Both the position numbers and the translations under genes were made by a program. A stretch of DNA of 64,000 nucleotides. Origin: Thamnidium elegans (taxonomy: Eukaryota > Mucoromycota > Mucoromycetes > Mucorales > Mucoraceae). The notes under the pieces are model-generated. The model was not told where the DNA came from, searched no databases, and was given only the letters and a program-made list of their open reading frames with translations. Of this stretch, positions 9,800 to 58,366 are shown piece by piece; the stretch's first letter is position 1; the number at the start of each line of letters is the position of its first letter. The DNA lies in NCBI GenBank assembly GCA_025201345.1, contig JAIXMG010000003.1, forward strand, positions 372,001-436,000. The letters run 5' to 3'.

Positions 9800-10450
9800 T
9801 CAGGAAGTGAAGCTATTGTGGAATCCCTTTCGAAATGAGTTGGTAGGAATAACGATAAAATTGTAGGAATGAAGGCGGATATAGAGGAAGGAGTGCCTGT
9901 AGAGGAAATGTAGGATGTAAAGATATTGGACCATATAGGTTTTTTTAGAGGGACAGGTGAAAAGAAAATGATCCGCTGTTTCTTCAGATATCGAGGTGGA
10001 CAAACAGAGGAGGCAATTGTGTGATTCAGCTTTATCGGGAAAGAATCTATGTAATATAAATTTTGTTGGTATTTTGTTGTAAATGGCTCGGTACCAAATA
10101 GTTCGAGCCGGTAAAGGAATTTCGAGTTGCCAAAACTCTAACCATTTTCTGGAGTTAATGATCAGTGGTAGTTGTGAAGGAGGTGAGATGAGACCTTTGT
10201 AATAGTTTATAAAAGTAACGGCCCATTTAGTTATGGGGTTAGGGCTGGTGAAAAGAGCAGAAGAGATAGATGATAGTTCCACGTTTCTGGAATTTGAGGT
10301 TTTCACGTAAAATAATAAAAACCGTCATTTGTCAGAAAATCCAGGAATGAAATTTTTTCGAGCGGTATAAATTGTCGGATCCTGTAACGGAAGGTGACAC
10401 GGGAGACGGTGATTATTTAAATATACAAAAGTGTTGACGTTGAAATATTC
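9800..10450 (-). mobile_element. LINE 3'-end fragment (zf-RVT C-terminal domain)
   Basis: A 168-codon open frame (10306-9800) contains the typical C-terminal part of a fungal LINE ORF2: WLEFWQLEIPLPARTIWYRA, NKIPTKFILHRFFP and a zinc-binding CLLC...EETADHFLFTC block. It lacks endonuclease and RT, so it is a fragment of a second copy, related to but distinct from the element at 5134-8700, whose own C-terminus is still present. The frame extends upstream in broken form to about 10450. Confidence 0.7.
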
Positions 10451-11252: not shown

Positions 11253-14200
11253 ATGTTATTTCGAAAATCGCGTAAGAGAACAACCGATATAGAATCGGTC
11301 TCGACAGAAGAAGATACGCTTTTTAACGGATCGTCAAGACGTCAACTAGACAAACTTGAAATTTTAAAAGTAGACCCAATCGACAACCACAATTTTCAAG
11401 TGGAAAATATCAAACTACTAGACATATCCAGTAACAAAGAGTGGATGGCTTACGTTAGTTACAAACGAGACGAAACTAGTGAACGTGATCCGGATACGGA
11501 GGAAGTATACAACACATATTTAACCAGACGTAGATTCACATCTGTTGATATATATAATAGCGACAAAAAAATCATTCTGGAAAGAGGATGTCAAAAATTC
11601 AGTACTGAAGATGAACACTTTAGCGTCGATATTACTGCTTGTATTAAAACCGCTGGATCAAATCACTGCAAATTTCTGTCTATTTCTCATGACGGTTTAT
11701 ATATTGCTTTATCTTTTTATGAAAAAAATAACAAGGATCAAAAAAATGTCAACTGTTTTATTTTTGAAGTTTGTGATAAAGATATCAAGTTAAAATCTTC
11801 TCCAGAATGCAGTGGACGTGCTGTGTTCTTAAATGAAAAAAAGACATCTTTAGCCTTTATTGACGTAAAGACGTTAAGGTATGCGAACTTTTTATCTGGT
11901 ACATCTGACAAGACTACGCTTGATTTGAATATTTTTGAACCAGGAACTACCGGAGAAAGAAGTTTATTTCATAACTCTTATATTAAAAACTCCCCTTGGC
12001 TCGATTTTAAAGGAGAAAATGATGAAATAAAAAAGCTGATAACGCTTACTAGACATATCAAACACAATATTGTAACTACGCCTTTCGATGTTGGAATTGC
12101 CCGCACTTGGTCGATTAAAGAAAATGGTGTACGCTTGACTTCATTTGAAGCTAAAGGACAACATATTATGGCGTTCTCAAAAGATTATAAGTTTACTGCT
12201 GCTTATGTTGAAAGTAATGGATCAGTAAATGTTTATAACGTTAAAAGTGGTTTGCTAGTTTATCAACTAAAATCACAAAAAAACATTCCTGCTGTTAATT
12301 TTGAAGTCTCTCATATTCGTTTTTGTTATGGTGGTCGATATGTAGCCATGTCTGGGTGGGAAGATGACAAGGTGGTCTTTGAAATCTGGTATTTAGAAGC
12401 AGAAAAGTCTATATATAGAGAAAGTCAAGATGTTGGTGAGAGATCTTTTGAGTCTAAACAGCTCAAAGTATTTGAACCTTTTGTTGCGCGAGTATATAAT
12501 TTTAATGAAGAAAAATGTTTGATGGGATTCTACATGTCTAAAAACGGCAATAAACTCGAAACCAAATTTATGGAGCTACGTGTAGATAAAGAAAAAGACC
12601 CTGTTGCTATAAAATGGATTCAAAAGGCCATACCTATTGCTAATGCGAAATATGAAATATCGAATAATTTGCTTGATTTCGAACACCTTAAATGCGGTTA
12701 TATTGGAGAAATGAAATATCTGATTCGTTTCGGTAAGCATACTATTCAACTTTGGAGGATAAGTGGTGATAGCACTAAGGAAGATTCAATATGCGAACAG
12801 GATGAACTTCTTTATATAAGAGCCTACAAAGCACCTGATTATGGACGCGCCTATTCATTTCGTGACAACTGGAAAGTTTGTAATTTTAACAGTATCAAGT
12901 TTGTTGGAAATAATCCTTTAGGCAGATTAATAGTTAATATAAGAGACACATCCGATGAAAACAGTAGTGACGAAAATAGTTCCAAAATTTATCATACAGA
13001 GGAGATATTTTTACCGCTAGACAATGTTAATAGTGGAAGAAAATTTGACTACCATCAGCTAGAAAGTGCATGTCAAGGATTACACTACCTTTTTTTCGAC
13101 CGTGAAAAGGAGCCTGAGGTTCAAGTAAGATTATTCATAGATATGTTTATCAAATTAATAACTTTTCATTTCTAATAGGAAAATATGGCCAAACTACGAA
13201 GCAAAACCTTAAAACTCGTTATGTCAGCTATTAATAATATTTACGACAATTATAATTACTTTTCGACACTCTCTGGAAGCAAAGCACTTGTTATGCTAGC
13301 ATCCTTTAAAGAAGGTCGAGAAATAATAAAATTGCTTTTAATTAAAGACGTTCCTATCAGTATTTTTAGTTTTCACATACCTTCAGCAAAAATTAACAAT
13401 CAACGCCCAGAAGAAGTTGATAAAGCCATGGAATATTGGAAGGATTATTACTCAAAGCTGAAAGATAAACTTGGTTGTAATACCGAAAATAATATTGTAT
13501 CAACTGAAGTTACCGGAAATAATAATTCATCTAATGATGTTCTTAAAAATAAGATTATATACCGAAGTTCAGAAGAAGGAAGTGTTTCATCAGAGAAATA
13601 CGAAATGATGGCAACAAACGAAAATGTTTTAACGGTATTGATCGAAGAATCAAGCTATGATCTGTTCAAATTACTTTTTAATCGCATTCTGTTTGATTCC
13701 AAAAAATTGGGGCCGGGTTGTCTTTCAGCATTAACGGACGCTCTTGTGTTTCTTCAAGAAGAGGGTAATTCTGGTAAGTTAAATAAAATTTGGAAAATAA
13801 GTCATGGCGTAAATATTAACGATTCAATATTCAGATCTTTTATTATCGAGTAGTCAGAAGCTATCATACTTGAAAATTGAAGTGGAAAAACTAGGCATCT
13901 TAGGTTCTGAATTAAGCAATAACGTAAAAATAGACTCACCACAAAAAGAATATGTTGCTAATCTAAGGAATCTGGAATCTCACGCAATAAAAGAGCAACT
14001 TACGAAGTACAGTGGTTTCGAATCTTCGTTGCGTAACTATCAAGATAAATTATATTCGAGATACGAATATAGATTTTACATAAAGCGCATATATACATTC
14101 TTATTCAACGTAGTAGTTATTATCAAGTATCTTGTATGGAAGTATATTACCAAAGACTCCGAAGAAAAAAAGAAGGAATTATCTAATCTGTGTGTTATTC

Positions 14201-15793
14201 CTCTTCCACATTTCAACTCGTATAGTGATTTCCCAGAAGATCGACTTAAAAACAGTAAAAATAATAAAAACAACATTACTGGTAAAAACAACATTACTGG
14301 TAAAAACAACGAAAATAACGAAAATAGTGAAGATATTATTCCTTATAAAACAGAAAGCGCATTTACTAGAATTGCATCAAGTCAAAACGATAACAACATC
14401 TTTCGACAAGGTGATACTATTCTCGAAGTCTTACTGGAGTATAAATGGAAAATGTTTGCAAGAAAAAAGTTTGCTTTGATTTGTTTTATACATGCATTGT
14501 ATTATGCCAGTTATTCTACCGGTGTTTTGTTTTCTCGGACATTATATGTTAAGGGAGAAAACAATGAATTTGATATGAAACATCCAGGTCATATAGTTTC
14601 TTTGGCAGTTATGGGGGTTAGCTTAGTTGTGCTTGTCTATAAAGAATTACGGCAGTTTTTTAGTGGTCGTAGTAAGATGGCTTACGTCAACTCTGGTTAC
14701 AATTGGGTGGATGTAGCAGCATTTGGTTTTCCTGTACTTACAGTTCTGCAATCTTTACTGGGATGGAATTATTTTGTAAGGCAATATAAGAGTAAAAAAT
14801 TAATAATAACTGACAACATATATATGTATAGAATGAAGTTTGCAGCGTAACTACTTTAATTTTATGGCTGCACGGTATTTTGAGACTTCGAGTTATTTCG
14901 TATTTCGTAAGTGATGATAATATTTACTTACCATTACGATATCAGACGTTTTAATTCTTTTTTGTTACAGGGTGTTACTTTAGAGATTATTATTGAGCTA
15001 TTTAAAAACGTTTCTTCTGTACTTTTTATCATGTTACTTGTTATTATAGCATTTACCCAGGCATTTGTAGTACTTTTACGTATGGAGGAGGATGAGTATT
15101 TTCAAGATAATTTTTCTGGAAATTTTACAAGTAACACAACCGAAGGGCTTACAGGTAGCGCCAATGTTAGCGCAGATAACGGCTTTGTAAACTGGTTTAA
15201 AGCATTTTCGCAAGTTTGGTTTTTTATTTACGGTGTTTGGGACCCAGTCATAGAAGGCGAAGCAGGAGACAGTAAAATGCTCATGGCAATGTGCATTTTA
15301 TTTTCATTCATCACAGTGCTCATTTTCTTTAACATGGTTATGTAAGCTATAAAAAAAGTGTACGTATAAAAAAAAATCAATATCTTACTATTGTTTTATA
15401 TAAAGCGCTCTTATGTCGAGCACAGTTGAAGATGTGAAAAAAAGGGGAAAGAAAGTTTGGTAAGTTAACAGAAAGTTTATTTGTCGAATGGTACTAATGG
15501 ACGTTTGATATGTAGGGTTAGTCACTTTGCCGGTAAATATATACATGTATATCTAAATATTTATCTGCGATATCTAAGTATCTTATTTATTAGCTGTTGT
15601 ATCCGAGATTGAGCTATTGTGGTGTTCCAAAGAAGAGAAGCGTAGTAGAATAAACAATCCTACATATATATATTATATCGCAAACAGCGAAACGATATCG
15701 ACTCAAGAAAAGGAGCTCGAAAAGGAAACGAAGCAACTTTTACAAGAGCTTGGCGTTATTCCAAATGATATTAGTCGCCCCCTTACTAGTTAG
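11253..15793 (+). CDS. WD40-like/TRP-type ion channel, tandem copy 1
   Basis: Eight exons: 11253-13124, 13179-13773, 13835-14775, 14832-14906, 14971-15341, 15406-15459, 15516-15532, 15594-15793; all phases fit, giving 1374 residues. The N-terminal ~620 residues hold beta-propeller-like repeats (LLDISSNKEWMAYV, CKFLSISHDGLYIALSF, IMAFSKDYKFTAAYV with SVNVYNVKSGLLVY, SHIRFCYGGRYVAMSGW, YLIRFGKHTIQLW). A helical linker with FNSYSDFPEDR follows. The channel comprises S1 (FALICFIHALYYASYSTGVLF), S2, S3 (YNWVDVAAFGFP), S4 with LRLRV, S5 (VLFIMLLVIIAFTQAFVVLL), pore loop WFFIYGVWDPVIEGEAGDSK, S6 ending FFNMVIALMS and a TRP-like helix (KKRGKKVW). The S6-TRP region resembles TRPV channels, but no ankyrin repeats are seen. 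A cation channel of the plasma membrane or vacuole is inferred. The start is the first ATG in frame. Confidence 0.8.
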
Positions 15794-16712
15794 TCGCTTT
15801 CTTTTCATTTTCCCCCTTTTTTTTCAAAAAGAAACATGGTTATCATCTTTATATAAAAAAACGCGGAATAAAAGCCCGACAGGTTTTTGTTTTCAAGAGC
15901 TTTAACGCTGACGTCCATATTGGCCGTTCTATCCTCTCAAAGAGATAATATTATAGGAAAGTCCAAAGGGCGAAGTGAGGTAAGCGACTAGTTTTTTATA
16001 CTAGAATTTTGAATCAATAGTATGAGTATGTAACTATGTGATGTTTATTAACAATGAATTGGTAAAGTGGCAATCAGCAAGATCTTCGTCCTGTGTATAC
16101 GCGTGGCGCAATTCAAAACAAACAAACAAAATATAAAGCTAAAGTACAGTTTAAAAGGTCACATTATATATTACCTTAACTATAAAACATGCGGCACATG
16201 TTATATGTTGGAAAGCTCATCATATACCAGATATAAACATGTTATACTCAGTTGCGGTAGATGAATAAAGGTATCGTCGAACTATCCATCCAAAAATATT
16301 TTACTATAGGTATTTGAGTAATCAATATGTAACATAAGTGTATCCGCCGGATGATATATCTAATAGAGTCTTTTTCTTTGGACTGCCCGAGAAGTCGAAT
16401 ATAATGTATTCATAGTTGTCCAAGGTACAAGAACTTTGAAGAAAAATGCAGATTATCCTTAATTACTATAATGAATGCGAAAGATAAATAGAGTCTCATA
16501 TACGTAAACTATAAAATACTCATTAACATCATAGAGTAAACGTCTTCATCAAAGTATATGATTTTACTACATGAGGTTATATACATATTAGGCAGTCGCC
16601 ATTATAAAAGTGCAAACAAACATTATACTTTTCTCCCCTTTTACTCCTTTCTTCTTTTTTTTTTTATATTGATATTCTCTTTCTTAAAGATCGTTAAACT
16701 TTATATTGCAGT
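15794..16712. other. Intergenic region between TRP-like copies 1 and 2
   Basis: AT-rich spacer with no supported gene. The motif tatattgcag directly before the ATG of copy 2 looks like a 3' splice acceptor, so a 5'-UTR exon could lie within this spacer. Confidence 0.4.
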
Positions 16713-19700
16713 ATGTCGGGAAAAGAAGAGAGCATCATCCATATAAATGAAGAGCATTATGATGGTGATACAGATGAAGTAATGTTGCTAGATATATCCA
16801 GTAACAAACAATGGATGGCCTATGTCGCTTATAACTTTAGCATCACAAATGATGATCAATCTAATAACACTCAACCTGATACTGTTGCGAGTAGAAAAAA
16901 ACTAGTTTTAACTCGACGTACGTTTACCGCAACTGACGAAACAACCGGCATAGAAGAGCTAGGTTATAACGGTGATCCAGTAGAAATACCTTATGAAATA
17001 TCCTGGACCCATATTACAGATGATGTAATGCCTGCACAAGCATTTAACTGTAGATTTTTGTCTATATCAAATGATGGAATATATGTTGCTTTGTCCTTCT
17101 TAGAAATAGATTCAGACAGGGATAGACCTTGCGAGAATTCAAAAAACCTCAATTGTTTTATTTTCGAAGTAAATGGAGATTCATTTAAACCAGCCATTAA
17201 AATGAAATGTCAAGGACGCGCAGTTTTTTTGAACAGAAAAGGATCAACTTTAGCAATAATTAGCAAGAAGACGATCGAAGTTTATGAAGATTTTTCAAAA
17301 AATAGAACTGTAACATATGTGTTCCGATTATCATCTTTCTATTCGAATTCTATACGCTCTTGTGAAACAGTCAATATACAAAAAACATACGTTCATAATA
17401 CTTCTTGGTTTAATATGCCTCGAAACAAAAAAACCTCCAATATAGAAACACTTGTTACATTTACGAGGCATATACGCCATAATATACTGACAACGCCCTT
17501 CACTAGCAATGGTGTTGTTCGTATCTGGTCTCTTTTAGAAGATGGTGCTCGACTAACATCTTTCCCTGCTCTAAAACAACACGTTATGGCTTTTTCTAAA
17601 AATTACAAATATGCTGCGGCTTATGTGGAGGATAGTCGATCTGTAAATGTTTATAATGTTAAAAGTGGTCTCTTGGTGTACCGTTTAAAATCAAGAGATA
17701 AGAGTGATGCTACATTTTTTAAGATTTCTCATATTCGTTTTTGTTATGATGCAAGATATGTAGCCATGTCAGGACTGGAAGACGATAGTAAGGTGGTATT
17801 TGAAGTTTGGTATGTAGAAGCCGAAAGATCCATTTATAAGATAGTCAAAACGATTATCAAACAAGTAGACACAGAAGAAGAGATTGCTGATCTAAGAAGA
17901 GTAGAGCCTTTCGTAAGAAGAGGAATGAAGAACGATAAAAAGTGTTTGAAGGGATATTATACATCTTACCCGAACAGAAAAATGACAATTATGTGTGTAG
18001 AATTAGACATTGATAGAATTTCTGAGGACAATAATATAAATTGGGAAAGTAGCACAAAACCTGAAATCAAGAATAAATTCGAAATAGAAAATGGTTTGAA
18101 AAACTTCCATGGTCTCAAATGTCGTTATATCGAGGTTGAAAATAAAAAATACCTTCTTCGTTTTGGTAAACATACTGTGCAACTTTGGGATGTAGATTCA
18201 AAAAGCGATGAAAGTAGTTTGATAACAAAAGACGACAATCTTCTTTACATAAGAGCGTACAAGGGTCCTGATTATGGCATAGAGTATTCCTTTCGCGAGA
18301 CATGGGAAATTTCTGGATTTGATAGTATTAGATATACTGACGGCAATCATTATGGAAGATTAATAGTAAATATAAGAAGACCAGAAGATGATAACATAAG
18401 CATATATCACACGGAAGAAATTTTTCTATCCCTAGACGAATTGTTCCCATCAACAGTCAAAGAAGTTACTGTTGATGACCAAAAAAATAGATTTGACTAC
18501 CATAAACTAGAAAGCGCCTGCCAAGCGTTACATTATCTTTTTATGGGAGAATATAGCGGAAATAGTAATAACGTAAGTAATTTTTATCTTTAACTATTTA
18601 ATGGTATTCATTAATATCACCTTTATTTTTAGACCAATTTGATTTTATTACAAGAAAAAACGAACAAAATTATTGAATCTGCTGTATGTAATATCAAACC
18701 TGACTCCAATTTCTTTTCAACAATTGCTGGTAGTAGAACATTGGCTATGTTGGCATCATTTAAAGAAGGCAGGGTAGTCATCAAATCAATTATGGCTAGA
18801 AGGGTCCCTATTAGTATTTTCGGTTATGCTAGAACTAGACCTAAAAAAGATCAAGATGAACTTCTTAATATACATAGGTCTTGTACAACTGATACTTTTA
18901 GTGAGTCGAATATGCCTGATCCAACAAGTGAAGAAATTTTTTATCGATCTTCACCACGCAGAAACGTCTCTAAAAACATTCACAAAACAAAAATGATCGC
19001 TTCTAAAGAAAACGTCTTGACTGTATTAATTGATGAACAAATCCATGACTTGTACACATTAATATTCAATTGCATCCTAGCAGATTCGAGAAAACTAGGC
19101 CCTGGTTGCCTCTCGTCATTAACGGACGCTCTCTTATACCTTCAAGGGCGAGGAAATTATAGTAAGTTTAACACGCAAAAAAAGGGGCGAAGGGAATACA
19201 GAATATAATAAGTAATCAAAATTCCATAGAGCTTTTACTTTCGAGTAGTGCAAAATTATCGTATTTAGCTGTGGAAAAAAAAAAGTTGGGTATTTTACAG
19301 CATGAATTTGAAGAAATGGCTGACGCTAAAGTGTTAGAAAAAAAACATATCACAGATACTGAAAATTTGGAGGCACATGCAACTATGGAACAAATCAAGA
19401 TGTATAAAGGGTCTTGGCTCCATGTGTATCATTTACGCAAGAAATTTTTACAATGGTTGAATTTGGGTAGTACCATTGAATATATAGAAAAAGAATACAA
19501 TGTTAACATAAGAGGTCGCTGGAGGAAAATTCCCTTAGAAGAAAAAAGAGAGCTTGATAAATTAAGTAGTGTATGCGTAGTGCCTATCACTCATTTTAAT
19601 TCTTACAACAATCTCCCCGAAGACAGACCTAGAGCCGATTATTCCGATGTTGGCCCAGATAAAGACGTATATTATAGGGAAGAGAGTGCTTTTGTTCGTG

Positions 19701-21161
19701 TCGCATTAGACCAGCATATTAGTGATATGTTTCAACAAGGCGATATTGTACTTGAGCTCCTGCTAAAATATAAATGGCAACATTTCGCCAGATCAAAGTT
19801 TATTTTGATTTGCCTTATTCACGCAATATATTATGTGAGTTACTGTACAGGCGTTTTATTTGCTCCGGAACTATATGGTCAAAACTTGGAAAATAAGTTC
19901 ATCTTGGAAAATTCTGGTCAAATTGTTTCAATTGTGTTGATGCTTACTAGTCTTTTAATACTTATTATACAAGAAGCTCGTCAGTTTTCCCAAAAGAATG
20001 ATAAACTTAATTATTTTTTCTCGGGCTACAATTGGATTGACATAAGTGCATTCGTACTTCCTTTATTTACACTTATACAATTGTGTCTTAATTGGCCTCA
20101 ATTTGTAAGTTTAACATAATCATAAGATATACTTTCTAAATAACTAAATTATTCTTTATATGTATATATAGGTTGAAGTATGTAGTGTATCAACTTTGGT
20201 TTTATGGACGCATGCTATTTTAAGACTTCGCGTGATTTCGCATTTTGTAAGTAGTTATGCAGCAGAGAAGAATCTATAAAATGTTAATTTTTTATTATAC
20301 ACCTAGGGTATTACTCTGGAGACTATTATTCAACTGTCAAAAAAAGTGGCACCTATGCTATTAATTATGTTACTTGTAGTCCTTGCCTTCACCCAATCTT
20401 ACATTGTGTTATTACGTTTACACCCGGATGATTATTTTCGAGACACCTTTTCAGGAACTTTTTTGAGTGAAAATAGCCCAGAAGGATTGAATGGTATAGT
20501 TGAGTATGCAACATCTACCAACAACGGTTTTGTTAACTGTTTCGTCGCATTTTATAATGTCTGGCTTTTTATTTATGGTGTATGGGACCCAATTGTCCAA
20601 GGAGACGCAGGTAGTAGTAAAATGGTGATGGTCATGTCAATCGTATTTTCCTTAATTGCTGTCTTAATTTTTTTTAACATGGTGATGTAAGTTGTGCAAA
20701 TTTCTTTTATTTTCATATTAATGTTTACTTAATCATTACGTGTGTAAAAGTGCTATCATGTCAAGTGCGGTAGAAGAGGTAGACAGCCATGGAAAGAAAG
20801 TGTGGTAAGTTGAGTATGAATTATGAATTGAATCCCACTAATATTCTCATTTAGGATTAGCCATTTTACAGGTAAAAATAAGTATAATCCCTAATCTACT
20901 ACAGAAACTTACGGTCCCTCCCCCCCCCCCTTTTTTTTTACCACTTTAGATGTAGTATCCGAAATTGAGCTCTTATGGTGCTTCAGAGACGAAAAATATA
21001 GTCGAAAAAATAATCCTACGTGCTTATACTATTTAGCAAGCAAGGAAAGTATATTAGAGCATAAAATAAAACTAGAAGAAGAAACCAATGAACTTTTTAA
21101 AAAGCTATGCGGTTTTTCTGAAACTTCCAAAGTTACCCCCATCTTGGAACAGACAAAATAA
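16713..21161 (+). CDS. WD40-like/TRP-type ion channel, tandem copy 2
   Basis: Eight exons: 16713-18572, 18633-19161, 19230-20104, 20172-20246, 20307-20686, 20751-20804, 20855-20871, 20950-21161; all phases fit, giving 1333 residues. The architecture equals copy 1: propeller-like N-terminus (VMAFSKNYKYAAAYV, ISHIRFCYDARYVAMSG, YLLRFGKHTVQLWDV), linker with FNSYNNLPEDR, then S1 (FILICLIHAIYYVSYCTGVLF), S4 (LWTHAILRLRVIS), S5 (LLIMLLVVLAFTQSYIVLL), pore loop WLFIYGVWDPIVQGDAGSSK, and S6 ending FFNMVIAIMS. A coiled C-terminal tail (HKIKLEEETNELFKKL) may mediate assembly. Exons 4, 6 and 7 are exactly 75, 54 and 17 bases as in the other copies. It is the closest relative of pseudogene copy 3. Ligand and ion selectivity are unknown. 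Confidence 0.82.
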
Positions 21162-22354
21162 CAAGCATTGTCAAAAGCTTAAATAAATAGTAGCTGTAAT
21201 TGTGTGGCCGCATTATTCTTAAAAAATAAAATACATACCAGTCAACCCCCCCCCCCCTTTTTTTTCTATTCTCTTTTTTTTCTGTTGTCCGGTATAACAT
21301 GATATTGAGCGCGGAAATTCATGACTTGAAGATCGCCCTCTATTAAATAAGTATTCTTCTGTTTCTCCTCGAATTAATATCGGTGACCCTAATCATGAGA
21401 TACAACTACTTGACATATTGAGCAACAAAAAATGGATAGCTTATGTCACTTATTATGATGATGGTAACGCAGAAGCGGTATCAAATGAACAGAATAATTA
21501 TGATAGTAGAAATATATTCATAGCTCGACAAAGGTTTACCGCAGTGGACCAAGAACCTCAATTCGAAAAAATGGGCTTCAGTGGCAACATTGTATTACAG
21601 TCCACTGATCTGAAACGCTCTAGTATCAAAATAACAAAACATATAAATGATGATAAAGGAACTCACTGTAAATTTCTGTCTATTTCAAACCACGGAAAAT
21701 AAGTTGCTATATCTTTCTACGAGAAAGCTTCTAAACGCAAACGCTTTACAAATCTCGATTGTCTTATTTTTGATATGGATGAGGAGTTGCCTGATCCCCA
21801 GAAATAAAATGCCAAGGACGTGCTGTTTTTTGAACCAAGAAGAAAAAGAAAAGTATACTTTAGCAATTGTTAAATAGTAAAAACATATTAGAAATTTATG
21901 CCAAGTTCCCGGAAATAAAAACAGTTACCTGTATGTTTGATTTATCGAGTTTCTATACGGTTGGTCAACGGTCTTGCTCAACAGTCAGTAAGCAAGAGTC
22001 ATATATTAGTAATGCTTCCTGGGCCACTATTTACCGTAGTCCCTATGATGGGCGTGATATGGAAACTATATCATGAAATTTACTAGTCATATACGTCACA
22101 ATATATTAATAATGCTCTTTGAAGGCGAAAGTATTGTTCGTATCTGGTCAATTTTAGATAAGGGTGCCAGATTCAGCTAAAAACCAACATATTATGGCTC
22201 ATTCCACAGGCTACAATTATGCAGCAGCTTATGCCAATAATACTCGGTCTGTAAATGTTTATAATGTTAAAAGTGGTCTTTTGGTGTATCGTTTGAAATC
22301 AAGAGAAATGAGTGACGCTAAAGAATTTTAATTTTCTCATATTCGTTTTTGTTA

Positions 22355-23348
22355 CGGTTTTCTTAGGGACCATGGCGCAAATCTTTCGGACCACAGGGGA
22401 GTGTACATAGGGTAACTTGGATCGGGTGTCCTGTGGTCCGAAAAAATAACTACGTGCACTCCCGTGGCCCGAGAAAGTTTTGGTCCCTGAACTGCGTCAA
22501 AACAAAAGTTTAAAAGTTCAATGATGATAGGTATAGGAATGTCAAGAAAGATATGCCCTTAGAGTGTGAATCCAAAAGGAGCATGTATGTAAATACTTTG
22601 GTTTCGATGTTGCCAGCCTAGAAAGGAGCATCAAATCAGATATGTATGAGTATAGAAGAACGAGCATGTCTATTTGGTTTGACTATCTTGGCTGTGTTCA
22701 AGCAGTTGCAGATACTTACAACATACCTGTATGTACATATCCTGACGCCGGAAATAAAAGACGTCTTTATGAAACACTCACTATTTTGCCACTTAAGGTT
22801 ACTATAAAACCAAAAGTAAAAGTACGGCCACACCACCTTCAAATTATAAAAAATGCACACTGGATAGCTGTCGAGTTCGGCCATAGGCGTATGTCATATC
22901 CTTCTGTTAGCCATATGTACTTCCAGGTAGACGAATCCTATGCTACATTGTTTAAATCGACATGGAATCCCTTTGGGCAATTTCCCAAACATACAGAAGG
23001 AAAGACTTTTGATGCAGAAAAAGACGAGCTTGTTGTAATCGAATCTTCCGATGAAGAATAATAACTTTTCCTCTTAATAAACTACCTTATTTTCTTTATA
23101 TTTTCAGAGAAAGATAATAAAATACGAAGTATAGTATGAATGCTAAGCGTAAAAAATAATTTTAAATATTTTATGATGTGTATAAGTAATATAAAATAAC
23201 AAAAATAAAATAACGAATATCAATTAAACAACTCTAATGTTTTAGTTTTGTTTGATAACGCTTGGACCACGGGGCACCCGATCCAAGTTACCCTATGTAC
23301 ACTCCCCCGTGTTCCGAAAGATTTGCGCCGTAGTCCCTAAGAAAACCG
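22355..23348 (+). mobile_element. MULE-like non-autonomous element with OTU-like frame, inserted in TRP pseudogene
   Basis: Near-identical terminal inverted repeats of about 85 bases (22355-22439 and 23264-23348) begin CGGTTTTCTTAGGGAC. They are flanked by a perfect 9-base target duplication TTTTTGTTA (22346-22354 and 23349-23357). Long TIRs with 9-bp duplications are the hallmark of Mutator-like elements. The site is within exon 1 of TRP-like copy 3; removing the element plus one duplication restores the sequence seen in copy 2 (cgtttttgttatgatg). It encodes no transposase, only the OTU-like frame, so mobilisation in trans is inferred. Confidence 0.85.
22570..23061 (+). CDS. OTU-like cysteine protease fragment carried by the MULE-like element
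   Basis: The frame is open from just after the stop at 22567 to TAA at 23059-23061; the first ATG is at 22585-22642 depending on frame choice, and 22642 gives 139 residues. The text FGFDVASLERSIKSDMYEY, then WFDYLGCVQAVADTYNIPV, then HWIAVEFG fits the C-terminal half of OTU domains seen in fungal and plant transposon-linked proteins, including the conserved His of an H-W/F motif. The N-terminal catalytic block (DGNC-type) is not visible, so this is probably a truncated, inactive domain. An acidic tail (VVIESSDEE) ends it. The OTU assignment is by pattern memory. Confidence 0.45.
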   Translation: MQKEHVCKYFGFDVASLERSIKSDMYEYRRTSMSIWFDYLGCVQAVADTYNIPVCTYPDAGNKRRLYETLTILPLKVTIKPKVKVRPHHLQIIKNAHWIAVEFGHRRMSYPSVSHMYFQVDESYATLFKSTWNPFGQFPKHTEGKTFDAEKDELVVIESSDEE

Positions 23349-24850
23349 TTTTTGTTATGATGCTGGGTATGTTGTCATGTCAGGTCTAAGGAGATACAGA
23401 AGTGACGTTTGAAGTTTCGTATTTAGATGCCGAAAGATCCATTTATAGGACAACTAAAAATATTGTTCCGCAAGAAGGTGTCAAAAAAGATATTGCTTGT
23501 TTAAGAAGAACGGAGTCTTTTGTAAAAAAAAGAACTGAAGAACAATAGAAAATGTTTGAAGGGATATTATACATCGTACCCGGGCGGAATAATGACAATT
23601 ATGTGTGTAGAGTTAAAGATAGACGAAGCTTCCGATGATGCTATCGTAAATTGGATAACTGATACTGATCCTTTATGTATGAGCGAATTTGAAAAATAAA
23701 ATGGTTTGGGAAAATTCAATGGTCTCAAATGTGGTTACATCGAGGCTGTGGATGAAAGGTATCTTATTTGTTTCGGTAGACATACTGTGCAACTTTGGAA
23801 TTTATCCTCAATTGGCCCCAGTTTGTAAGTTTACCATAATCATAGTATACGCTATCTAAATAATTAAATTATACTATATTTGTACGTGTAGGTTGAAGTA
23901 TGTAGTGTATCAACTTTAATTTTATGGACGCATGCTATTTTAAGACTTCGCGTGATATCACATTTTGTACGTAGTAAACAACGGAGAATAGTAGATTGTA
24001 AACTATTTTTTTTTTTGTTTTTTTTTGTTTCGTAAATCTAGGGCATCACTCTAGAGATTATTACCCAATTATCTAGAAGAATTGCACCCGTACTATTAAT
24101 CATGTTACTTGTCATCCTTGCTTTTACCCAATCCTACGTTATTTTGCTGCGCCTACAACCAGACGAATATTTTAGGGGATACCTTCTCGGGAACGTTTTG
24201 AGTAGGAACAACTCAGATACAGGTGACATAGCATTTGAGAATGATGTTGAATTTGCAACATCTAGTAATAACGGTTTTTCTAATTGGTTTACGACATTCT
24301 ATAATGTTTGGCTTTTTATTTATGGTGTATGGGGTATTGTTGACGGAGATGCCGGTAGTAGTTTAATGGTGATGGAAATGTCTGTCATATTTTCTTTAAT
24401 CGCTGTTTTGATTTTTTTCAATATGGTGATGTAAGTCGTACAAAAAAATACTTTCTGTTATTTTTTAGCTAACTTTTTTTTACGTTCATAAAGTGCATTA
24501 TGTCTAGTGCAATTGAAGAGGTAAATGGTTGTGAAAAAAAAGTGTGGTAAGTAGAATAATTACCATTAATTTAATTTCATTAATATTCGTTTCTTATACG
24601 TATTTAGGATTAGCCATTTTACTGGTAACATATAAGTTAATATTTTAGTATTACGAAAACTAATTAACTCCTTTTTTTAGATGCTGTATCAGAAATTGGG
24701 CTCCTGTTGTGCTTTAAAGAAAAATATAACCTAAAAAATAATCCAACTTGTTTGTGCTATTTGGCAAGCACGGAGGCTATATTAGAACATAAAAAGAAAC
24801 TTGAAGAAGAAACAGTCAGGCTTAAAGCAAAACTCAACATATTGAACTAA

Positions 24851-25149
24851 ATAAACAAAATAAATTCTAGTATGTAAACTCAAGGCTTATACCTAGAGAT
24901 TAGTTATGTAAAAGATTGTGAGTTTCTCAAGACTTTTTATCTTCTACATTTGTGTGGCAAACAAAGGATACACAAGACAGACATAGATTTGCTATACCCG
25001 ATTTTTTTTTTTTTATAATTAAAAACATTATCAAATCGGGTTTTCATATATTACAATACTATAATGTTACACGTCTGAGTTAATAGCATATACATTGGGG
25101 AATTTGACCTCAACAAACACAACAAAAAACTATTCAAAATAAACAAGTT

Positions 25150-25212
<63 letters not shown>

Positions 25213-25624
25213 GAATATCCGAATGTATAAAAAATAAAAGTGATGATTTGAAAGGTTTGAAAGTGGTCAAAATTACACAAAGAAGTGTGGGACAGGCATG
25301 CATTCCATACTTTATGTTACTAACACAGCCCCTCCCCATCAAGCAAGATAGTAACCGTGGTTATACTATATTGTATTTATGAATTATAAGCTTTTGTTCA
25401 TAAAATGAAAATATTCGAGTTATGTCCTGTCTAATCCGAACATTAGCTTTACAGGCTGCTCTTATAATTTCCCCTTGTATTACTTTTTAAGTTACACTTT
25501 GTGTTATCGCTGTTTCTAAAATGTGCCACCACTAAGCCAAGTACACCTTAAAAAAAATAAGCATCAATAAAACTTATTTTATCCTTTTTTCCTTCGCCAC
25601 TTATTCTAATTTTTATATTCTAGT
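24851..25624. other. Intergenic region between TRP-like copies 3 and 4
   Basis: No gene is supported. It contains an uninterrupted T60 run (25152-25211), listed separately. The sequence tattctag directly before the ATG of copy 4 again resembles a splice acceptor. Confidence 0.45.
25152..25211. repeat. Homopolymer T60
   Basis: Sixty consecutive T, the longest homopolymer in the window, between TRP-like copies 3 and 4. It may be the poly(A) tail of a minus-strand retrocopy or a slippage product. No retrogene body is recognisable to its right. Confidence 0.9.
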
Positions 25625-28600
25625 ATGGATGTTGATGAAGAATATGGTAGCGTACAGTCAGAAGATAGACTTTTTACAGTAAGAAGCTCATCAGGTCTAT
25701 CTCCGATTGACATCAACGACAGTGAACATGAAGTTGTATTACTCGATATTTCAAATAACAAAAAATGGATAGCTTATATTACTTACAAAATTGATAATAC
25801 GGGAATACATGACTCAAACTACGACTTGATAGGACCTGATCAAAAAAAGCGTATGTTTATAACTCGACGAAGATTTACTACAGTCGATAAAACAACAGGA
25901 AAAGAAGAAATAGTTTTTAGCGGAAAGCCTGTATCAACAACTCAGATTGATCACCTTAGTTTTGAAATTACAGATTTTGTAAAAAATGGAGGCCGGCGCC
26001 ACTGTAAATTTTTATCAGTTTCACAGGATGGAAAGTACGTAGTTTTATCCTTCTTTGAAAGAAATACCGATGGTAATAACCGTCGCAAAACTCCCAACAA
26101 TCCAAATTGTCTTATTTTTGAAATGAAAAAAGATTTTAAAGAACCTCGAGAAATAAAATGTAAAGGCCGTGCAGTTTTTTTAAATCAAGAGCATTCTTTA
26201 GCCATCATTAGCCCCAACACTATAAAAATTTACGCCAATTTTCCTGAAAGCGAAAGTGTTACATTTATGTTTGATCTTCGCCCCTTTCGTACAACAAATA
26301 CACATTTTCAGGAAGCTATTGAAAATCAAGAATCCTTTATCCAAAAGGCTTCTTGGCTTGATATCTCGAGAATTGAAACAGACGACGACATGAGAAGACT
26401 CATTACATTTACGAGACATATTCGTCACAATTTATTAACCACTCCGTTCAATGGAGGCGTTGTTCGTATTTGGTCAATTATAGAAGATGGCACCCGACTT
26501 ACCTCTTTTCCTGCTCCAAAGCAACATGTGATGGCTTTTTCTAAAAATTACAAGTATACTGCTGCCTACATTGATAACACTCGATCCATCAATATTTATA
26601 ATGTTAAAAGTGGTCTTTTGGTGTACCAATTGAATTCCAGAGATACAAGTGATGCAAGTGATTTTACTGTCTCCCACATTCGTTTTTGCTATGATGGTAG
26701 ATATGTTACCATGGCTGGATGGGAAAAAAATAATGTTGTTTTTGAAGTGTGGTATGTAGAGGCTGAGAAATCTGTTTATAGAACAACCGATGTTATTGTG
26801 ACGAAACCAGCTTCCTATCGAGAGGACGAAAAAATGAAAAAAGTCGTACAGCCTTTCGTTTCAAGAAGACTCAAGGACGGAAAGAAATGTTTAAAGGGGT
26901 ATTATACATCTTATCCTAAAGGAAAAATGACAATCATGTGTTTAGAATTAGATATTGACAAAGTATCCGACAAAACAAGTATAAATTGGATGGACAATAA
27001 GATCCCTCACTGCAGGAACACATACGAAATTGAAAATAGTTTACGTAATTATAAAAATCTCAGGTGTGGTACCATTAGTATTGAAGGAAAGAATTATCTT
27101 ATTCGTTTTGGCAAACATACTGTACAGCTTTGGGATGTTAACCCCGATGGAAACGACGATGGATTAATTAAAGACGAAGATAAACTTCTTTATATAAGAG
27201 CATACAAGGGACCTGATTATGGTATCGACTATTCGTTCCGAGAAACATGGAAAATTGACTCATTCGAAAGCATAAAGTTTATTGGAGGAGATCCTTCTGG
27301 AAGATTATTAGTTAATATAACAGAGCTTACAGAAGAAACTGAAGAAGATGAGGTATCTAATAGCTACCATACCGAGGAAATTTTCTTACCGTTAGATGAA
27401 TTATCAACAACATCTACACCACCAGATGAACCAAAAATGTCTACAGTGCCAAAGAAAGCTTCTACCACAATACGAAACGATAACTCTTTACGATTTGATT
27501 ACCATAAATTAGAAAGCGCTTGCCAAGCTTTACATTTCCTTTTCAACTCTACCGAAAGTTTTACAAATGTTGAAGATCAAGATAAATTTAATGTAATATT
27601 TATTAAATTTCATACATACATAACCATTCTGATTTTTTTTATTTTTTTTTACATATAGACAAATTTGACTCAAATACGTACAAAAACAGAAAATCTTATT
27701 TTAGCATCATTGAATAGTTTTGATATCAACTCCAATTATTTTTCAACTATCGCCGGTAGTAGAACACTTGCCATGTTGGCATCATTCAAGACTGGCAGAA
27801 AAATTATTTTTATGATAGTAAAACAATCCATTCCTATCAGCATCTTTAGTTATGTCAGATCACAATCTGAAATAAACCAAAGCAATCCTCAAGAAACACA
27901 GCAAGATATAATAGATAGAGAAGAATATGAAAATAGCTTACTGGCAAGAACCCAGTCTGTACGAACTGAAGAGGTATCTTTAGAAAATGACGAATCAAAA
28001 GACCCCGAAGGATCCAACATGCCTACTCCTTCAGAAGGAGTATCTTATCGATCAGCGCCATTAAAGCCTGTGGATGAAACAGCAAATAAAAATTCGCTTA
28101 TTGCATCAAATGAAAATGTCTTGACCGTATTAATTCATGAATTAAGTTATGACTTGTACAAATTATTATTCAATCGTATCCTATCCGATTCCAAAAGACT
28201 AGGTCCAGGCTGTCTTTCTTCTTTAACTGATGCTCTTTTATTTCTCCAAGAGGAAGGAAATTCTGGTAACTTATATACAGCCATACAATTACAAAAAAAA
28301 AAAAAAAAAAAACATAAAATAACCAACAACTTTTAGATCTATTACTTTCAAGTAGTCAAAAATTATCCTACTTGGAAATTGAAAAAGATAGATTAGCTAT
28401 TTTATCTTCAGAAATTTTCCAAGTGATGAAAGTCAAGGAGCTACAAAAGGAATCTATTTCAAGTATCAGAACGTTAGAGTCTCATGCAACCATGGAACAA
28501 ATAAAAAAATACAATGGAAGATTTTCAATTCAAATGTATCATATTCGAAAGAGATGGAGAAGCTGGTATGAACAACGCATTTGGTGGAAGAATTTCAAAA

Positions 28601-29977
28601 AACCCATCGTCATCTTTTATAAATTCAATATCAGGAACCCGTGGAGAAAGTTATTTATTGAATCAAAAAAGGAAGCTAAACAATTATCAAAGGTGTGTGT
28701 TGTTCCACTTCCTCATTTTAATTCGTATAGTTCTTTCCCCGAGGATCGACCTAAAAATACAAAGTATGATGATGGAAAGGTTATACCTTACAAAAAAAAT
28801 AGTGCATTTGTAAGTGTTGCATTAGATCAACACGATAACAATATGTTTCGACAAGGTGATACGGTTCTGGAAGTCTTGCTTGAATATAAATGGCAAAATT
28901 TCGCTAGAAACAAATTTATTTGGATTTGCTTAATTCATACAATTTATTACATCAGCTATTGTACAGGTGTCTTGTTTGCCCCTGAATTATACGATATAAA
29001 CCTAGAAGAAGACTTTGTTTTGGATCATCCTGGTCAAATTGTATCTCTCATCTTGATGCTTTTATCTTTATTGGTTCTCATTGGACAAGAAATTCGACAA
29101 TTCATTGAAACACAGGATAAAATTGACTACATTTTCTCTGGTTACAATTTGGTTGATATATGTTCCTTTGTATTCCCTATAGTAACATTAATGCAGTTAG
29201 TCTGTAACTTGCCGAATTTTGTAAGTATCCTAGTCTAAATTAGTACAATCGTATTTGACTAAACAGTTTATCTCAATTTTTAGAGCGAAGTTTGTAGTGT
29301 AGCTACTTTGATTTTATGGACCCACGCCATTTTAAGACTTCGTGTTATTTCTTATTTTGTAGGTTGTAAAAACAAGATCAATGACAAAGGAAATAACTAA
29401 ACTTTTTTTTTTTAAAAAAAAAAATAGGGTGTAACATTGGAGACCATTATTCAACTATCTAAAAATATTGGTTCTGTATTGTTCATCATGTTACTTGTCA
29501 TTCTTGCTTTCACTCAATCATATATGGTTTTGTTACGTTTAAGTCCTGATGAATACTTTCAAGATAACTTTGAGGGCAGCTTTGCTGGGGATGTGACTTC
29601 AGAAACAGGAAGTTTAACGGCAGAAGGCACGGTTGGATTTGCTGGATCAAGTGCGGACAATGGATTTGTCGATCCATTTAAAGCGTTTTATCAAGTTTGG
29701 TTATTTATTTATGGTGTTTGGGATCCTATTATTGAGGGAGATGCAGGAGACAGTAAAATGATTATGGCATTATCTATTGTATTCTCATTGATTACTGTAT
29801 TGATTTTCTTCAATATGGTGATGTAAGTTATACAATTTTTTTTTCCTCTCTCTCTTTTCTAACTTTTATATTATTATGTTAAAGTGCTCTTATGTCGAGT
29901 ACTGTTGAAGCTGTTGAGAAACGTGGAAAGAAAGTTTGGTAAGTCTATATATGTACCATTTATTCATCAGTAGAACT

Positions 29978-30012
<35 letters not shown>

Positions 30013-30289
30013 ATAAACAGGGTTAGCCATTTTGCTGGTAAGTAAAGCTTATATATATATTTCGCATCAAGTATTCATTTTTTTTTCTTGAATTTATATA
30101 GCTGTTGTATCTGAAATCGAACTTTTATGGTGTAGCAACGAAACAAAGCATAGTAGAAAGAACAATCCTATTTACATCTACTATATTGCTAGTTTCGATT
30201 CCGTCTCGTTACAGGAGAAGAAGCTTCTGAAGGAAACTAAAGAACTTACAGATGAACTGGAAGATACTTTTTCCTCAAAAAAACCATAA
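25625..30289 (+). CDS. WD40-like/TRP-type ion channel, tandem copy 4
   Basis: Eight exons: 25625-27592, 27659-28265, 28337-29220, 29284-29358, 29428-29822, 29885-29938, 30021-30037, 30102-30289; all phases fit, giving 1395 residues. Propeller-like repeats fill residues ~30-600 (LLDISNNKKWIAYIT, HCKFLSVSQDGKYVVLSFF, VMAFSKNYKYTAAYI, SHIRFCYDGRYVTMAGW). The linker has CVVPLPHFNSYSSFPEDRP. S1 is near residues 1048-1068 (FIWICLIHTIYYISYCTGVLF), S4 fills exon 4 (1154-1178), S5 is near 1195-1215, the pore loop WLFIYGVWDPIIEGDAGDSK near 1269-1288, and S6 near 1289-1312 ending FFNMVIALMS. A TRP-like helix with EKRGKKVW follows. The tail has a short coiled-coil-like segment. Acidic residues in the pore loop suggest cation selectivity (inference). 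A T32 run precedes the exon-7 acceptor. Confidence 0.83.
29980..30011. repeat. T32 run in an intron of TRP-like copy 4
   Basis: Thirty-two T lie in the intron between exons 6 and 7 of copy 4 (29939-30020), immediately before the acceptor tgataaacag. It acts as an extreme polypyrimidine tract. Other copies lack it. Confidence 0.9.
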
Positions 30290-31429: not shown

Positions 31430-33458
31430 TTATCGATGTTCAGTTGAATTATCGCCAAGTTGAATAACTCTAGTAGTAGTTCTACCCGTTATAACAGGCT
31501 GAACTGTATAGCTTTCACGACTATACAAGGAATCATCGTCATTGGTATAATAAATATTGCTACCTGAAACATCAGAACCTTCTTCATCCGAGTTAAAATG
31601 ATCTTCAATGTATTCTTCTTCTTGAAAGATATCATCGTAAGTAGGTTCTTCTTCGTGTCGCCATGCTATTTCTTCATTATCAGAACCTTGATATCCAATA
31701 TCATCAAGTTCATCTTGATAAACAGAGATTTCATATTCATCAGAATGACTATCTTCTTCTGTACGAGAAGGTAAAGCCGGAGGTATCTCATCTACTTGTC
31801 CAATCGGCGCAGAAAGATCTGCACATGGGTTCATAAGTGGTTTCAAATAATTTATGTAAGATGATCTTACAGTAGGATGTGGACATTGTATCAATATCTA
31901 TTATTATAATTATTCAGTCAGTTGCGTTTTTCCTTATAATTTTACATATTATGTTACCTTTGAAATCTTATCAAAGCCTGAAAGCATTAACTCAAGCCTC
32001 ATCTTTTCCTGTTCACGTTCATCATAGTATCCAGTATAAGTTGTTGGCTGAGTAGTAACGACTGTACGTATCAATCTAAGATGAGTTATCTATTAAAAAG
32101 AAAAGGTTTAGTTTTTTTTTAAGAACGCACACACACACACACACACAAACTTTACAATATAATCAACCACTCCTTCTTCAGTCATCACAGCTCCGTCAGC
32201 TTCGGGATTGGAAGCAGCCCTTGCCTCTTGTTCTGATTGACTCTGTCTCATCTTAATCTGTCTGTACGCACTTTTAAAATCATAATTTAATACTTGCGCC
32301 AAAAACGTGATTGTTTCGATATGCCGTTCTACCGTATACTGAAGTTCACGCATCCAACAAGTATATCTTGGTTTTAATTCATCATGATCCCACTCATATT
32401 CTTTGCCTATGGTTTCTCCATTAGGATCATTTTCCATAATCATTTGTAAGATCTCTTTAGGGTCTGTCTTTAATGAGATGGGAAATGGAGATACATGCTT
32501 TGGGAGATTTTTCTTGTCTTCTTCTTCGTAAAGTCTGTCGTTAGGACGGTCCAACAATAAACGGCGAAGGACGTCGTAACCATGAACATATTCAATATCA
32601 GGTGATCGGTTGGTTTGAAGGGTTGCCAAGGTACACAACAGGTTTAACAATAAACTACGTGTACTAATGTCAAGACCGTACACTTGCTTTTGCTTTTTAC
32701 TGGCGGGACCAAATAAAATATCGCGAATGTGGAATAGCGCACTTGGGTTGGTTAGCACAATTTGTGTGCCCGTAGATTGATGTGTCATGATGGTCTTGAG
32801 ACATTTACCTAAATGCTGCAACATTCTATTGTCGCTAGGGAACCTCTTGGGTGCTTCCTTCATTTCCTTGAATAAATTAGCGATGGCTTCGTACCCACCT
32901 TGTGCCAAAAATTCACTTGTCCAACTGACAACAACGCTTCTTAAAAATACGCGTAAATCCAATACTTCGGCATCATCTAAATCTCTTACATGCGTTTCGC
33001 GTAACAGATGAACAAAATATTCAGGTGTAGATTTTAATTTACTACGAGAAGTACTCTTTCCGTAAGATTCAGGACTGTTTGGTAAACTAGATCTTGGTCT
33101 ACCGTATCTTCCAGGAGCTGTATGGTTTTGCTTTAAACTGTTTAATTGTTTTTCTGTCATCATGCTTGTACTGGTAGTATTAAAAATAACGGAATCTTGT
33201 GCTGCTGATTCACTGAGATAGTTTGGTTCATGCTTTGGTTGTTTGTATTGTCTGGTTGATTTGTTTTTTAAACCAAATGTTGCTTTTAAGGAAAAAGATG
33301 GCATGACGTGTGAAAATGTAGAATTCTTTTTTAATAGAGCTGGAGATCTGGAGGAACGTAATAGCATTTCTTTTTGTTCAAATGTCAAGTTATGAACATT
33401 ACTCATATGATCTGCTGAAGGAGCATACTCCCTCTATTTTTTTAAGGATGTTAATATT

Positions 33459-38300: not shown

Positions 38301-39622
38301 CGGTTAATTTAGCTTCGCGTAAGGTTTGTTTCATGATCTTGCGATAAGCAGTACGATCTACAGAATTTGCTAATCGGTTGGCTTCCTCCATATTCTTTAC
38401 AATCTCTTCACGTAACTTTGCTTGTTTATGACGTAATTGCAATGATCTTAATTGGACAATCGATTGTAACCTTTCATCAGAAGCAGTTCTGACAGTCTCA
38501 TCATAATACTCGTTTAACAAATAACCTAACGGCTGTCTACCTTGTTCCTCTATACTAGATTCCAACATGTGTAATTTAACTTGAGCTCGTTGCTCAATTC
38601 TTTTTTCGCGTTGATCTAGAATAGTATAAGGGCTAAGTCCTTGAGGTGCTGTATCCGGTAACAATAACCTTTGTTGTCTGGACGCATGTGCATGTGATCT
38701 TTGTTGACCTGTTAATAATTCAATAGCTCTTATTTTACCGTTGTTGTTGTTGGATACGCATGGGTTCTTTAATGAAATAAACTCATCCGATTGTTGATAA
38801 ATGGTTTCAACGAGACGTTCGGACATGGTCTTTGGTGGCTCCTCTGGTTCTGGTTGTAAAAGGTTGTAAGCGAGGTATTGTAAGTTTTGGTTGGCTACAT
38901 ATATATATAAAAAAAAAAATTGTTAGTTTTTTTTTTAGAAAAAAAAATAAAAAAATATATCACTTACAGGCAGAGACACCTTGTTTTTGTGGTAATGCTG
39001 GAGATTGTTGAGGAGGTTGGGGTTGCAACTGTTGTAATTGCTGTGGTTGTTGTTGAAGTTGCTGTTGAGGTTGTAACTGTTGAGGTTGTTGTTGCTGTTG
39101 CATTTGTTGCTGCTGTAACAAATGCTGTTGAAGTAACTGAATCTGCAACTGCTGTTGTTGCTGCTGCTGTAACTGAGTATCATTGATAGCCTGCTGTAAT
39201 TGCGCATGCTGCTGGGGATGTTGCAACTGTTGTTGTGGAGGCGGCGTTAGTGATTGTGATTGTAATTGTAATTGTGGCGGTGGTAGCGGTGTTTCTGCAG
39301 CAGGTAATATATTTTGTAACTTTGGATCAACAGCAGCAGAAGAAGTAGTAGGTGCCTTTTGTTGCTGTTGTTGCTGCTGCAAGTTCGCTTGTTGGAGTAA
39401 TCGAAGTAAGTTCATTAACTGAGAAAATTCGTTTTTACCGTCTTCTATTTCCCCATTAGCTTTTAACTGCTTTGCCCTCTATTTTAAGAAAAAATTGTTT
39501 TAATATATTTTTTTTTAAAAAAAAACAGAATATACCTGGAGTACGATATTCAACTTTTCAGTAGTCAATGAACTTAGACTTAATTGTTCATTAGGTACAG
39601 ACGAAGATTTATTATTATCCAT
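35391..39622 (-). CDS. SNF2/STH1-type chromatin-remodelling ATPase (HSA + helicase + SnAC)
   Basis: Eleven minus-strand exons (39622-39536, 39478-38968, 38894-37873, 37800-37696, 37631-37468, 37404-37095, 37037-36867, 36798-36635, 36572-36380, 36323-36085, 36018-35391) with fitting phases give 1197 residues. Order: Q-rich N-terminus (~55-195), an HSA-type basic helix (~390-465, [20 protein letters not shown]), the ATPase with Walker A DEMGLGKT (~596-603), DEGHRMKN (~699), the second RecA lobe with [27 protein letters not shown] and [11 protein letters not shown], then a SnAC-like region ([20 protein letters not shown]). This is the catalytic subunit of SWI/SNF- or RSC-type complexes. The frame stops at KRPKY with no C-terminal bromodomain, unlike yeast Snf2/Sth1 and animal BRG1. 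I cannot tell SNF2 from STH1 orthology. Confidence 0.9.
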
Positions 39623-42978: not shown

Positions 42979-43135
42979 ACGAAAAAAAAAAAAGTGTATG
43001 TGACACTTTTCTCCTTTAAATAAATAAATAAACAAAGCGGGATTAACTGTTTATTTTTTTTACCCCTCGTTTTTTTTTTAGTTTGTTGTTTTTTTTTGTG
43101 TTGTCTTTTTTTTTTTTTTTTTTTTCTGTGGTAGT

Positions 43136-43305
43136 ATGCAACAACCAGATTTCTATAATTATCTGTTGGATTCTAATCCGCAATCGGTACAGCAATTACA
43201 GCAACAACCGGTCCAGCAACTACAACAGCAACCGCAACAACAACAGCAAAACATACAACAACAACAACAACAACAACAGCGGCAGCAGCAACAAAAAAAC
43301 ATACA

Positions 43306-43336
<31 letters not shown>

Positions 43337-43979: not shown

Positions 43980-44019
<40 letters not shown>

Positions 44020-49037: not shown

Positions 49038-49194
49038 GGCAAAAACTCTTTTTTCTTTTTTATAAAAAGGGAATAGCCTTTTTTTCAAATTTTTGTTTTT
49101 TATTGAACTTAAGTCACGCATCCTAGGAGAGGAACTTTAAAAGAGAGAAAGTAAAAGAATCAAAAGAAATAAGATTGCTATAGAAGGTATGGGT

Positions 49195-58269: not shown

Positions 58270-58366
58270 GTTAGGCAAGTAAAAAATTTTTAAAAAGGAA
58301 TTAAAAAATTAAGGGGAGATTTTAAAAAATAAAAACGGTAGTTATTAAGAATTGATAAAAAAAAAA

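Follow-up and report, generated by a model that had tools for sequence, protein, structure and literature searches.

The best-known channels of the TRPV type are those of animals, in which an ankyrin domain makes up the cytosolic part of the protein. Among beta-propeller proteins, the PROPPINs (Hsv2, Atg18, WIPI2/3) bind phosphoinositides through their FRRG motif. TRPY1/Yvc1 is a TRP-class channel of fungi and, to our knowledge, is devoid of propeller. Duplication of TRP-CC channels in Glomeromycotina and Neocallimastigomycota is reported in PMC8778642 and, according to PMC12881547, the HNWD-type fungal NOD-like receptors (NLRs) exchange WD40 domains between paralogues, these domains deciding recognition. 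The present analysis concerns a window of 64,000 nucleotides of Thamnidium elegans, of the Mucoraceae, Mucorales (positions 372001-436000 of contig C23, in an assembly of 34.1 Mb and 64 contigs), which harbors at positions 11253-30289 a head-to-tail array of genes, c1 to c4. The union of a propeller and a TRPV-like channel in one protein is well supported for these genes. TRPV-type channels and propellers are known separately, and their fusion was not found in print: none was described in the literature searched, by titles and abstract starts, and the word WD40 had 0 occurrences in the main text of two earlier surveys, PMC8778642 and PMC3410928.

The array is composed of three intact genes (c1, c2 and c4), each of eight exons, and of one pseudogene (c3), all on the + strand (Table 1). 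The exons were modelled by splice-aware dynamic programming and manual alignment, the public proteins P0020 and P0007 not being used as guides. All the introns are GT-AG and the exon positions match across c1, c2 and c4. The T. elegans protein P0020 is identical to residues 363-1395 of c4 (1033 residues) and P0007 is 99.8% identical to residues 1-1215 of c2 (1215 residues), the latter public model continuing from c2 into the remains of c3. In each intact protein, a WD40-type beta-propeller of about 550 residues is followed by a helical region and by a six-helix channel that includes the pore loop and the TRP-like helix; a tail forms the C-terminus. The splice models reproduced exactly the span and the protein lengths given by the initial annotation (Table 1); the four copies of identical domain order that it had described were recovered for c1, c2 and c4 and not for c3, a pseudogene that has lost a large part of the gene. 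The pairwise identity over aligned positions is 47.5% for c1/c2, 53.1% for c1/c4 and 56.0% for c2/c4, with 46-53% in the first 700 alignment columns versus 56-66% in the channel part.

The channel half was assigned by sequence and by predicted fold. Pfam Ion_trans matched c1 and c2 above its curated cut-off (Table 1), which excludes a chance match for the channel; P0020, which corresponds to the above-mentioned part of c4, is labelled Ion_trans, the whole c4 not being among the sequences scanned with Pfam. The channel half of c1 was compared with PDB sequences and the top match was TRPV1 (5.6e-6, query residues 82-386 of 437), the best 60 of the 81 matches with E up to 10 belonging all (60/60) to the TRPV family. 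With two family profiles of 26 and 19 sequences, the first channel family in the PDB was again TRPV (E 9.3e-6 and 7.1e-5, respectively), the two top rows overall of the 26-sequence profile being propellers; in one profile search, the first TRP protein outside TRPV was TRPM, at only E 0.14. The channel could be aligned with TRPV from S1 to the TRP helix, over the six-helix ion-transport domain, the pore loop and the TRP helix. As in animal TRPV (TRPV1-TRPV5, Inactive), the fungal proteins possess S1-S6, a pore loop with a GxxD filter, the aspartate of which is conserved in 34/34 aligned family members, an S6 ending in an NMVIALM-type motif and a TRP-like helix with a conserved tryptophan. This S6 and TRP-like helix motif (NMVIALMSSTVEAVEKRGKKVW in c4) is among the most conserved parts of the family. 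The fungal proteins differ from animal TRPV by their N-terminal beta-propeller, by ankyrin repeats not being found by sequence, by an identity of 14-19% in the fold matches and by a filter that continues as GVWDPxxxGDAGD.

A full-length model of a Pilobolus relative (predicted template-modelling score, pTM, 0.69) gave a C-terminal TRPV match spanning at most residues 475-1146 approximately. The best 50 structure-overlay rows of this model were 34 TRPV and 16 PROPPIN, all the channel rows being TRPV, and its plain Foldseek list contained TRPV5 at rank 7 (1.8e-8), Atg18 at rank 9 and TRPA1 at rank 17. Judged from these comparisons, TRPV is the channel family nearest to the channel half, TRPA1 matching also by fold, in agreement with the TRPV-like six-helix channel of the initial annotation. 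The likeness to TRPY1/Yvc1 is that of a fungal TRP-class channel: precomputed tables list PF23317 (YVC1_C) for 9 of 57 relatives, no match at E 0.1 was obtained when this domain was rechecked in seven relatives (four of them among those nine), and an exon-by-exon search of the T. elegans genome gave no candidate, its control giving no match either.

The propeller half is weak by sequence but clear by predicted fold. The best Pfam propeller match (5.8e-8), in a Mucor relative, was still under the curated cut-off, and the family profiles matched Tup1 and other WD40 proteins. The structure model of c4 exon 1 (Table 1) contains 37 strands. Its best 50 Foldseek rows comprised 14 G-beta chains, recognised by their chain size in G-protein-coupled receptor complexes, 15 WIPI or Atg18 and one Sqt1, the remaining 20 being chains of large assemblies, e.g. 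intraflagellar transport complex A (IFT-A) and the small-subunit processome, which were not individually identified. In the Pilobolus model, residues 44-507 superpose on PROPPIN propellers. Furthermore, the T. elegans paralogues differ from one another less often at the predicted propeller strands in 4/4 sets (p 0.007 to 3e-5), which is consistent with a propeller fold. The two models are in agreement with the propeller-like N-terminus proposed earlier, the Pfam propeller profiles staying below cut-off.

Between the propeller and S1, a helical region is predicted, which covers residues 537-825 (about 290 residues) of the Pilobolus model and is longer in c4. Among the 34 TRPV overlay rows, 21 start at or before residue 598 of the model and place this region on the pre-membrane ankyrin/linker part of TRPV, with a root-mean-square deviation (rmsd) of 4.9-8.6. 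Ankyrin repeats were searched with Pfam (no match in c1, c2 or across 10 family members), with a profile of the helical region against the PDB (none) and with an ankyrin consensus score against shuffled sequences (p never <= 0.05 in 10 genes, best p 0.06). Two segments, GSRTLAMLASFxxGRxII and NENVLTVLIxExxxDL, resembled ankyrin helices by eye and were discarded, the PDB profile, Pfam and the shuffles giving no support. Since no sequence test supports them, ankyrin repeats are not claimed for this region, and the propeller may either have been added to a worn ankyrin domain or, as the initial annotation has it, stand in its place.

The T. elegans genome contains 10 uninterrupted members of the family, i.e. 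c1, c2, c4, one gene on contig C11, one on C56 and five on C3, in addition to c3. The five genes of C3 occupy loci L025-L029, four of them in tight tandem. No stop or frameshift is present in the alignment of the seven re-spliced paralogues; the C3a model misses its first residues, the small last exons of the C11 and C56 models are uncertain, and the splicing of C3b equals that of P0002, which served as its guide and is not an independent control. The eight-exon layout is common to 8 of the 10 genes, the C11 and C56 models differing in small exons, and the frame is continuous in 10/10. Three protein searches yielded the 57 relatives, annotated in public records as hypothetical, uncharacterized or ion transport domain-containing. 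The same architecture is modelled in several genera, and the 44 named relatives are all from Mucorales, in seven genera: Mucor, Thamnidium, Helicostylum, Parasitella, Backusella, Pilobolus and Choanephora. No named relative outside Mucorales was present among the matches of these searches, one of which scored only the 8000 candidates with most shared words, Rhizophagus and Mortierella not being separately tested; absence elsewhere is not implied, and the family is so far seen in Mucorales. For c1, no close T. elegans protein was present among the matches of the three length-limited searches, the nearest one being the Helicostylum fragment P0044, and c1 may be unannotated in the public T. elegans records searched.

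In a tree of 39 rows, built by a quick method and supported by the Shimodaira-Hasegawa-like approximate likelihood-ratio test only, c1, c2 and c4 each pair with their own Helicostylum pulchrum protein (support 100), two of the three partners being partial. The partners of c1 and c2 carry neighbouring locus tags and their contigs are of equal length. As each intact copy has its Helicostylum orthologue, c1, c2 and c4 predate the split of the two genera. The local expansion suggested by the initial annotation is not supported as a recent event: the array of the window is old, and the recent expansion is located on another contig.

The evolutionary rates of the domains were compared by omega, the ratio of replacement to silent substitution rates. 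In the close copies C3c, C3d and C3e, omega fell from 0.80-1.04 in the propeller exon to 0.73-0.87 in the helical region and 0.23-0.31 in the channel, and the bootstrap intervals of propeller and channel did not overlap in 3/3 close pairs. In the three pairs with the more distant C3b, the respective values were 0.62-0.74, 0.46-0.52 and 0.23-0.27 and, for C11/C56, 0.45, 0.35 and 0.18. Among close paralogues, the propeller is near-neutral and the channel is constrained. Positive selection on the propeller found no support, no significant replacement excess being found in 18 tests (six pairs, three domains). The copies on C3 exchange segments. In 3 of 6 pairs, the runs of shared variants exceeded those of the permutations, with p at its floor of 0.0005 (codons 299-430 in C3c/C3d, 723-794 in C3d/C3e and 111-155 in C3b/C3c), the other three pairs giving p 0.001, 0.049 and 0.08; rate variation within the gene could make this test too favourable. 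The protein P0005, from another T. elegans record, was compared with L027 and L028: it follows C3c to about alignment column 650 and then C3d, and corresponds to the propeller of one copy joined to the channel of the neighbouring copy. This protein may be the result of a real unequal crossover or of a collapsed assembly; such a hybrid gene suggests that the cytosolic part is exchangeable. In the P0005 record, three consecutive locus tags stand on a 32-kb contig, where the array is possibly shorter or cut by the contig end. The constraint contrast and the exchange of propellers suggest a sensor that meets changing or different partners, relaxed constraint being an equal alternative.

We propose, with a probability of roughly 0.7, that these genes encode a TRPV-like cation channel whose gating is controlled by a propeller sensor in the cytosol, this sensor being exchangeable. 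From TRPV and from the position of the domains, a tetramer conducting Ca2+ and gated by the propeller would be expected, in a putative membrane and with a putative ligand. Four subunits would form one pore and the cytosolic N-terminal propeller would bind a partner or ligand; the movement would travel via the helical region and the linker, reach the TRP-like helix that follows S6 and open the pore, so that cations, probably Ca2+, would enter the hypha. Among close paralogues, the channel body would stay constant and the propeller would diverge and be swapped, and the family would thereby couple different cytosolic signals to one channel type. A TRPV-like channel with a propeller as cytosolic part would be a natural test of how the cytosolic part controls the pore, and the ten members of the family in T. 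elegans are candidate channels for the entry of Ca2+.

Several observations weigh against this proposal. Pfam propeller models stayed below their curated cut-offs in all sequences scanned. Ranks 1-6 in the Foldseek list of the Pilobolus model are IFT-A and axonemal chains, made of propeller plus helices, with rmsd 26-68 and low template-modelling (TM) scores, and residues 999-1067 of this model, including the pore loop, are of low confidence. In the close pairs, which share ancestry and are not independent, the propeller omega is not significantly above 1 (p 0.43-0.91), and its values against C3b correspond to purifying selection, so that relaxed constraint accounts for the close pairs no less well than adaptation does. 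Omega values and segment exchange were measured on genes of other contigs and not on those of the window, and P0005 may owe its hybrid structure to a misassembly of its record.

It is possible, although we consider it rather unlikely, that the propeller serves constitutively as a scaffold or in trafficking, e.g. in PROPPIN-like membrane or autophagy-related targeting, that the membrane domain, like that of many TRP channels, is gated by voltage, stretch, temperature or lipid, and that the fast change of the propeller reflects relaxed constraint. An omega near 1 is what relaxed constraint predicts, and the non-TRPV overlay rows of the Pilobolus model are all PROPPIN (16/16), the fold being superposable on that of Hsv2, Atg18 and WIPI2/3 at 10-15% identity. 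However, the fungal propeller is fused to a channel and lacks FRRG, even a relaxed form of the motif being absent in 33 of 34 relatives (c2 has VRRG) and, in the search with c4 alone, the match to G-beta chains is as good as that to WIPI/Atg18. Moreover, the propeller is not simply decaying, because its frame is open and its strands are conserved at about 50% divergence.

More doubtful still are lineage-specific receptor-channels, in which a fast, exchangeable propeller would recognise variable partners in the cytosol, perhaps of non-self or parasite origin, and open the built-in TRPV-type pore, Ca2+ entry being the output and the sensors being swapped by unequal crossing over. If the propeller reads variable partners, recognition receptor and channel would be combined in one protein, with a logic as in the WD40-bearing fungal NLRs that trigger cell death. 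This idea is compatible with a fast, exchanged propeller on a constrained effector, with the loss of a copy as a pseudogene and with the hybrid between two T. elegans records; according to PMC12881547, the WD40 sensor of HNWD proteins likewise diverges, is exchanged as repeats between paralogues and serves for recognition. Unlike in HNWD proteins, neither NACHT/NB-ARC nor HET was found among the Pfam matches of c1 and c2 up to E 1, the output module is a channel and the repeats of the propeller are not near-identical; as no NACHT was found, the resemblance is limited to the logic. The absence of significant omega above 1 also argues against such receptors, and c1, c2 and c4 are orthologous with another genus, so they are not turning over fast. 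Finally, propeller and channel could be two neighbouring genes, some public family models being truncated or wrongly fused (P0007 spans c2 into c3); this is very improbable in view of the same fusion modelled in several genera (e.g. P0001, P0004, P0006, P0021, P0027, P0034 and P0035) and of the shared exon layout and continuous frame of the T. elegans genes.

Table 1. Positions of the genes of the array, and of their main parts, in the window.
Feature	Position	Strand	Exons, content or basis
c1, intact, 1374 residues	11253..15793	+	exons 11253-13124, 13179-13773, 13835-14775, 14832-14906, 14971-15341, 15406-15459, 15516-15532, 15594-15793; splice models; Ion_trans 1.9e-8
c1 exon 1, predicted beta-propeller domain, 624 residues	11253..13124	+	homology with c4 exon 1, the model of which matches propellers
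c1, from S4 to the TRP-like helix, in four exons (14832-14906, 14971-15341, 15406-15459, 15516-15532)	14832..15532	+	pore loop FIYGVWDPVIEGEAGD within exon 14971-15341
c2, intact, 1333 residues	16713..21161	+	exons 16713-18572, 18633-19161, 19230-20104, 20172-20246, 20307-20686, 20751-20804, 20855-20871, 20950-21161; splice models; Ion_trans 5.8e-9
c3, pseudogene	21301..24826 (about)	+	stops, frameshifts, internal loss, insertion
Insertion inside c3, about 1 kb	22354..23349	+	86-nt terminal inverted repeats, 93% complementary; flanking 11-nt direct repeat CGTTTTTGTTA
c4, intact, 1395 residues	25625..30289	+	exons 25625-27592, 27659-28265, 28337-29220, 29284-29358, 29428-29822, 29885-29938, 30021-30037, 30102-30289
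c4 exon 1, predicted beta-propeller, 656 residues	25625..27592	+	structure model, pTM 0.80, mean predicted local distance difference test (pLDDT) 77.6
c4 exon 2, conserved intermediate region between propeller and channel	27659..28265	+	helical in the Pilobolus model; ankyrin repeats not claimed
c4 exon 5, S4-S5 linker, S5, pore loop FIYGVWDPIIEGDAGD and most of S6	29428..29822	+	gene model and family alignment

The pseudogene c3 lacks the stretch that matches residues 497-1088 (approximately) of c2. The outer edge of its insertion is ambiguous, so that the direct repeat is of 9-11 nt, a length of target duplication that we take to be Mutator-like. The element contains an open frame of 163 residues (22570-23058), for which no significant Pfam match was obtained.

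Other channel loci of the T. elegans genome were also recorded. The exon-by-exon search with Ion_trans did not list the window genes, and a weak match on contig C30 was rejected as a relative, its filter motif TTTGYG being that of a K+ channel. The PKD_channel search, also exon by exon, gave no match, nor did its controls. PF06011 (TRP) was found at one locus, on C9. On contigs C4 and C9, two loci carry several Ion_trans repeats each and are probably Cch1-like four-domain channels.

In the window, remains of retroelements (gag and reverse transcriptase, integrase with chromodomain, zf-RVT) were detected at 55126-58308 (-), 52398-53720 (+) and 9800-10324 (-). The downstream neighbour of the array, at 32108-33433 (-), is formin-like (Drf_GBD, 1e-14) and is followed further downstream by an HSA-domain frame (37858-38922), a PAS frame (43082-44101) and a CTC1-like frame (45696-49136).

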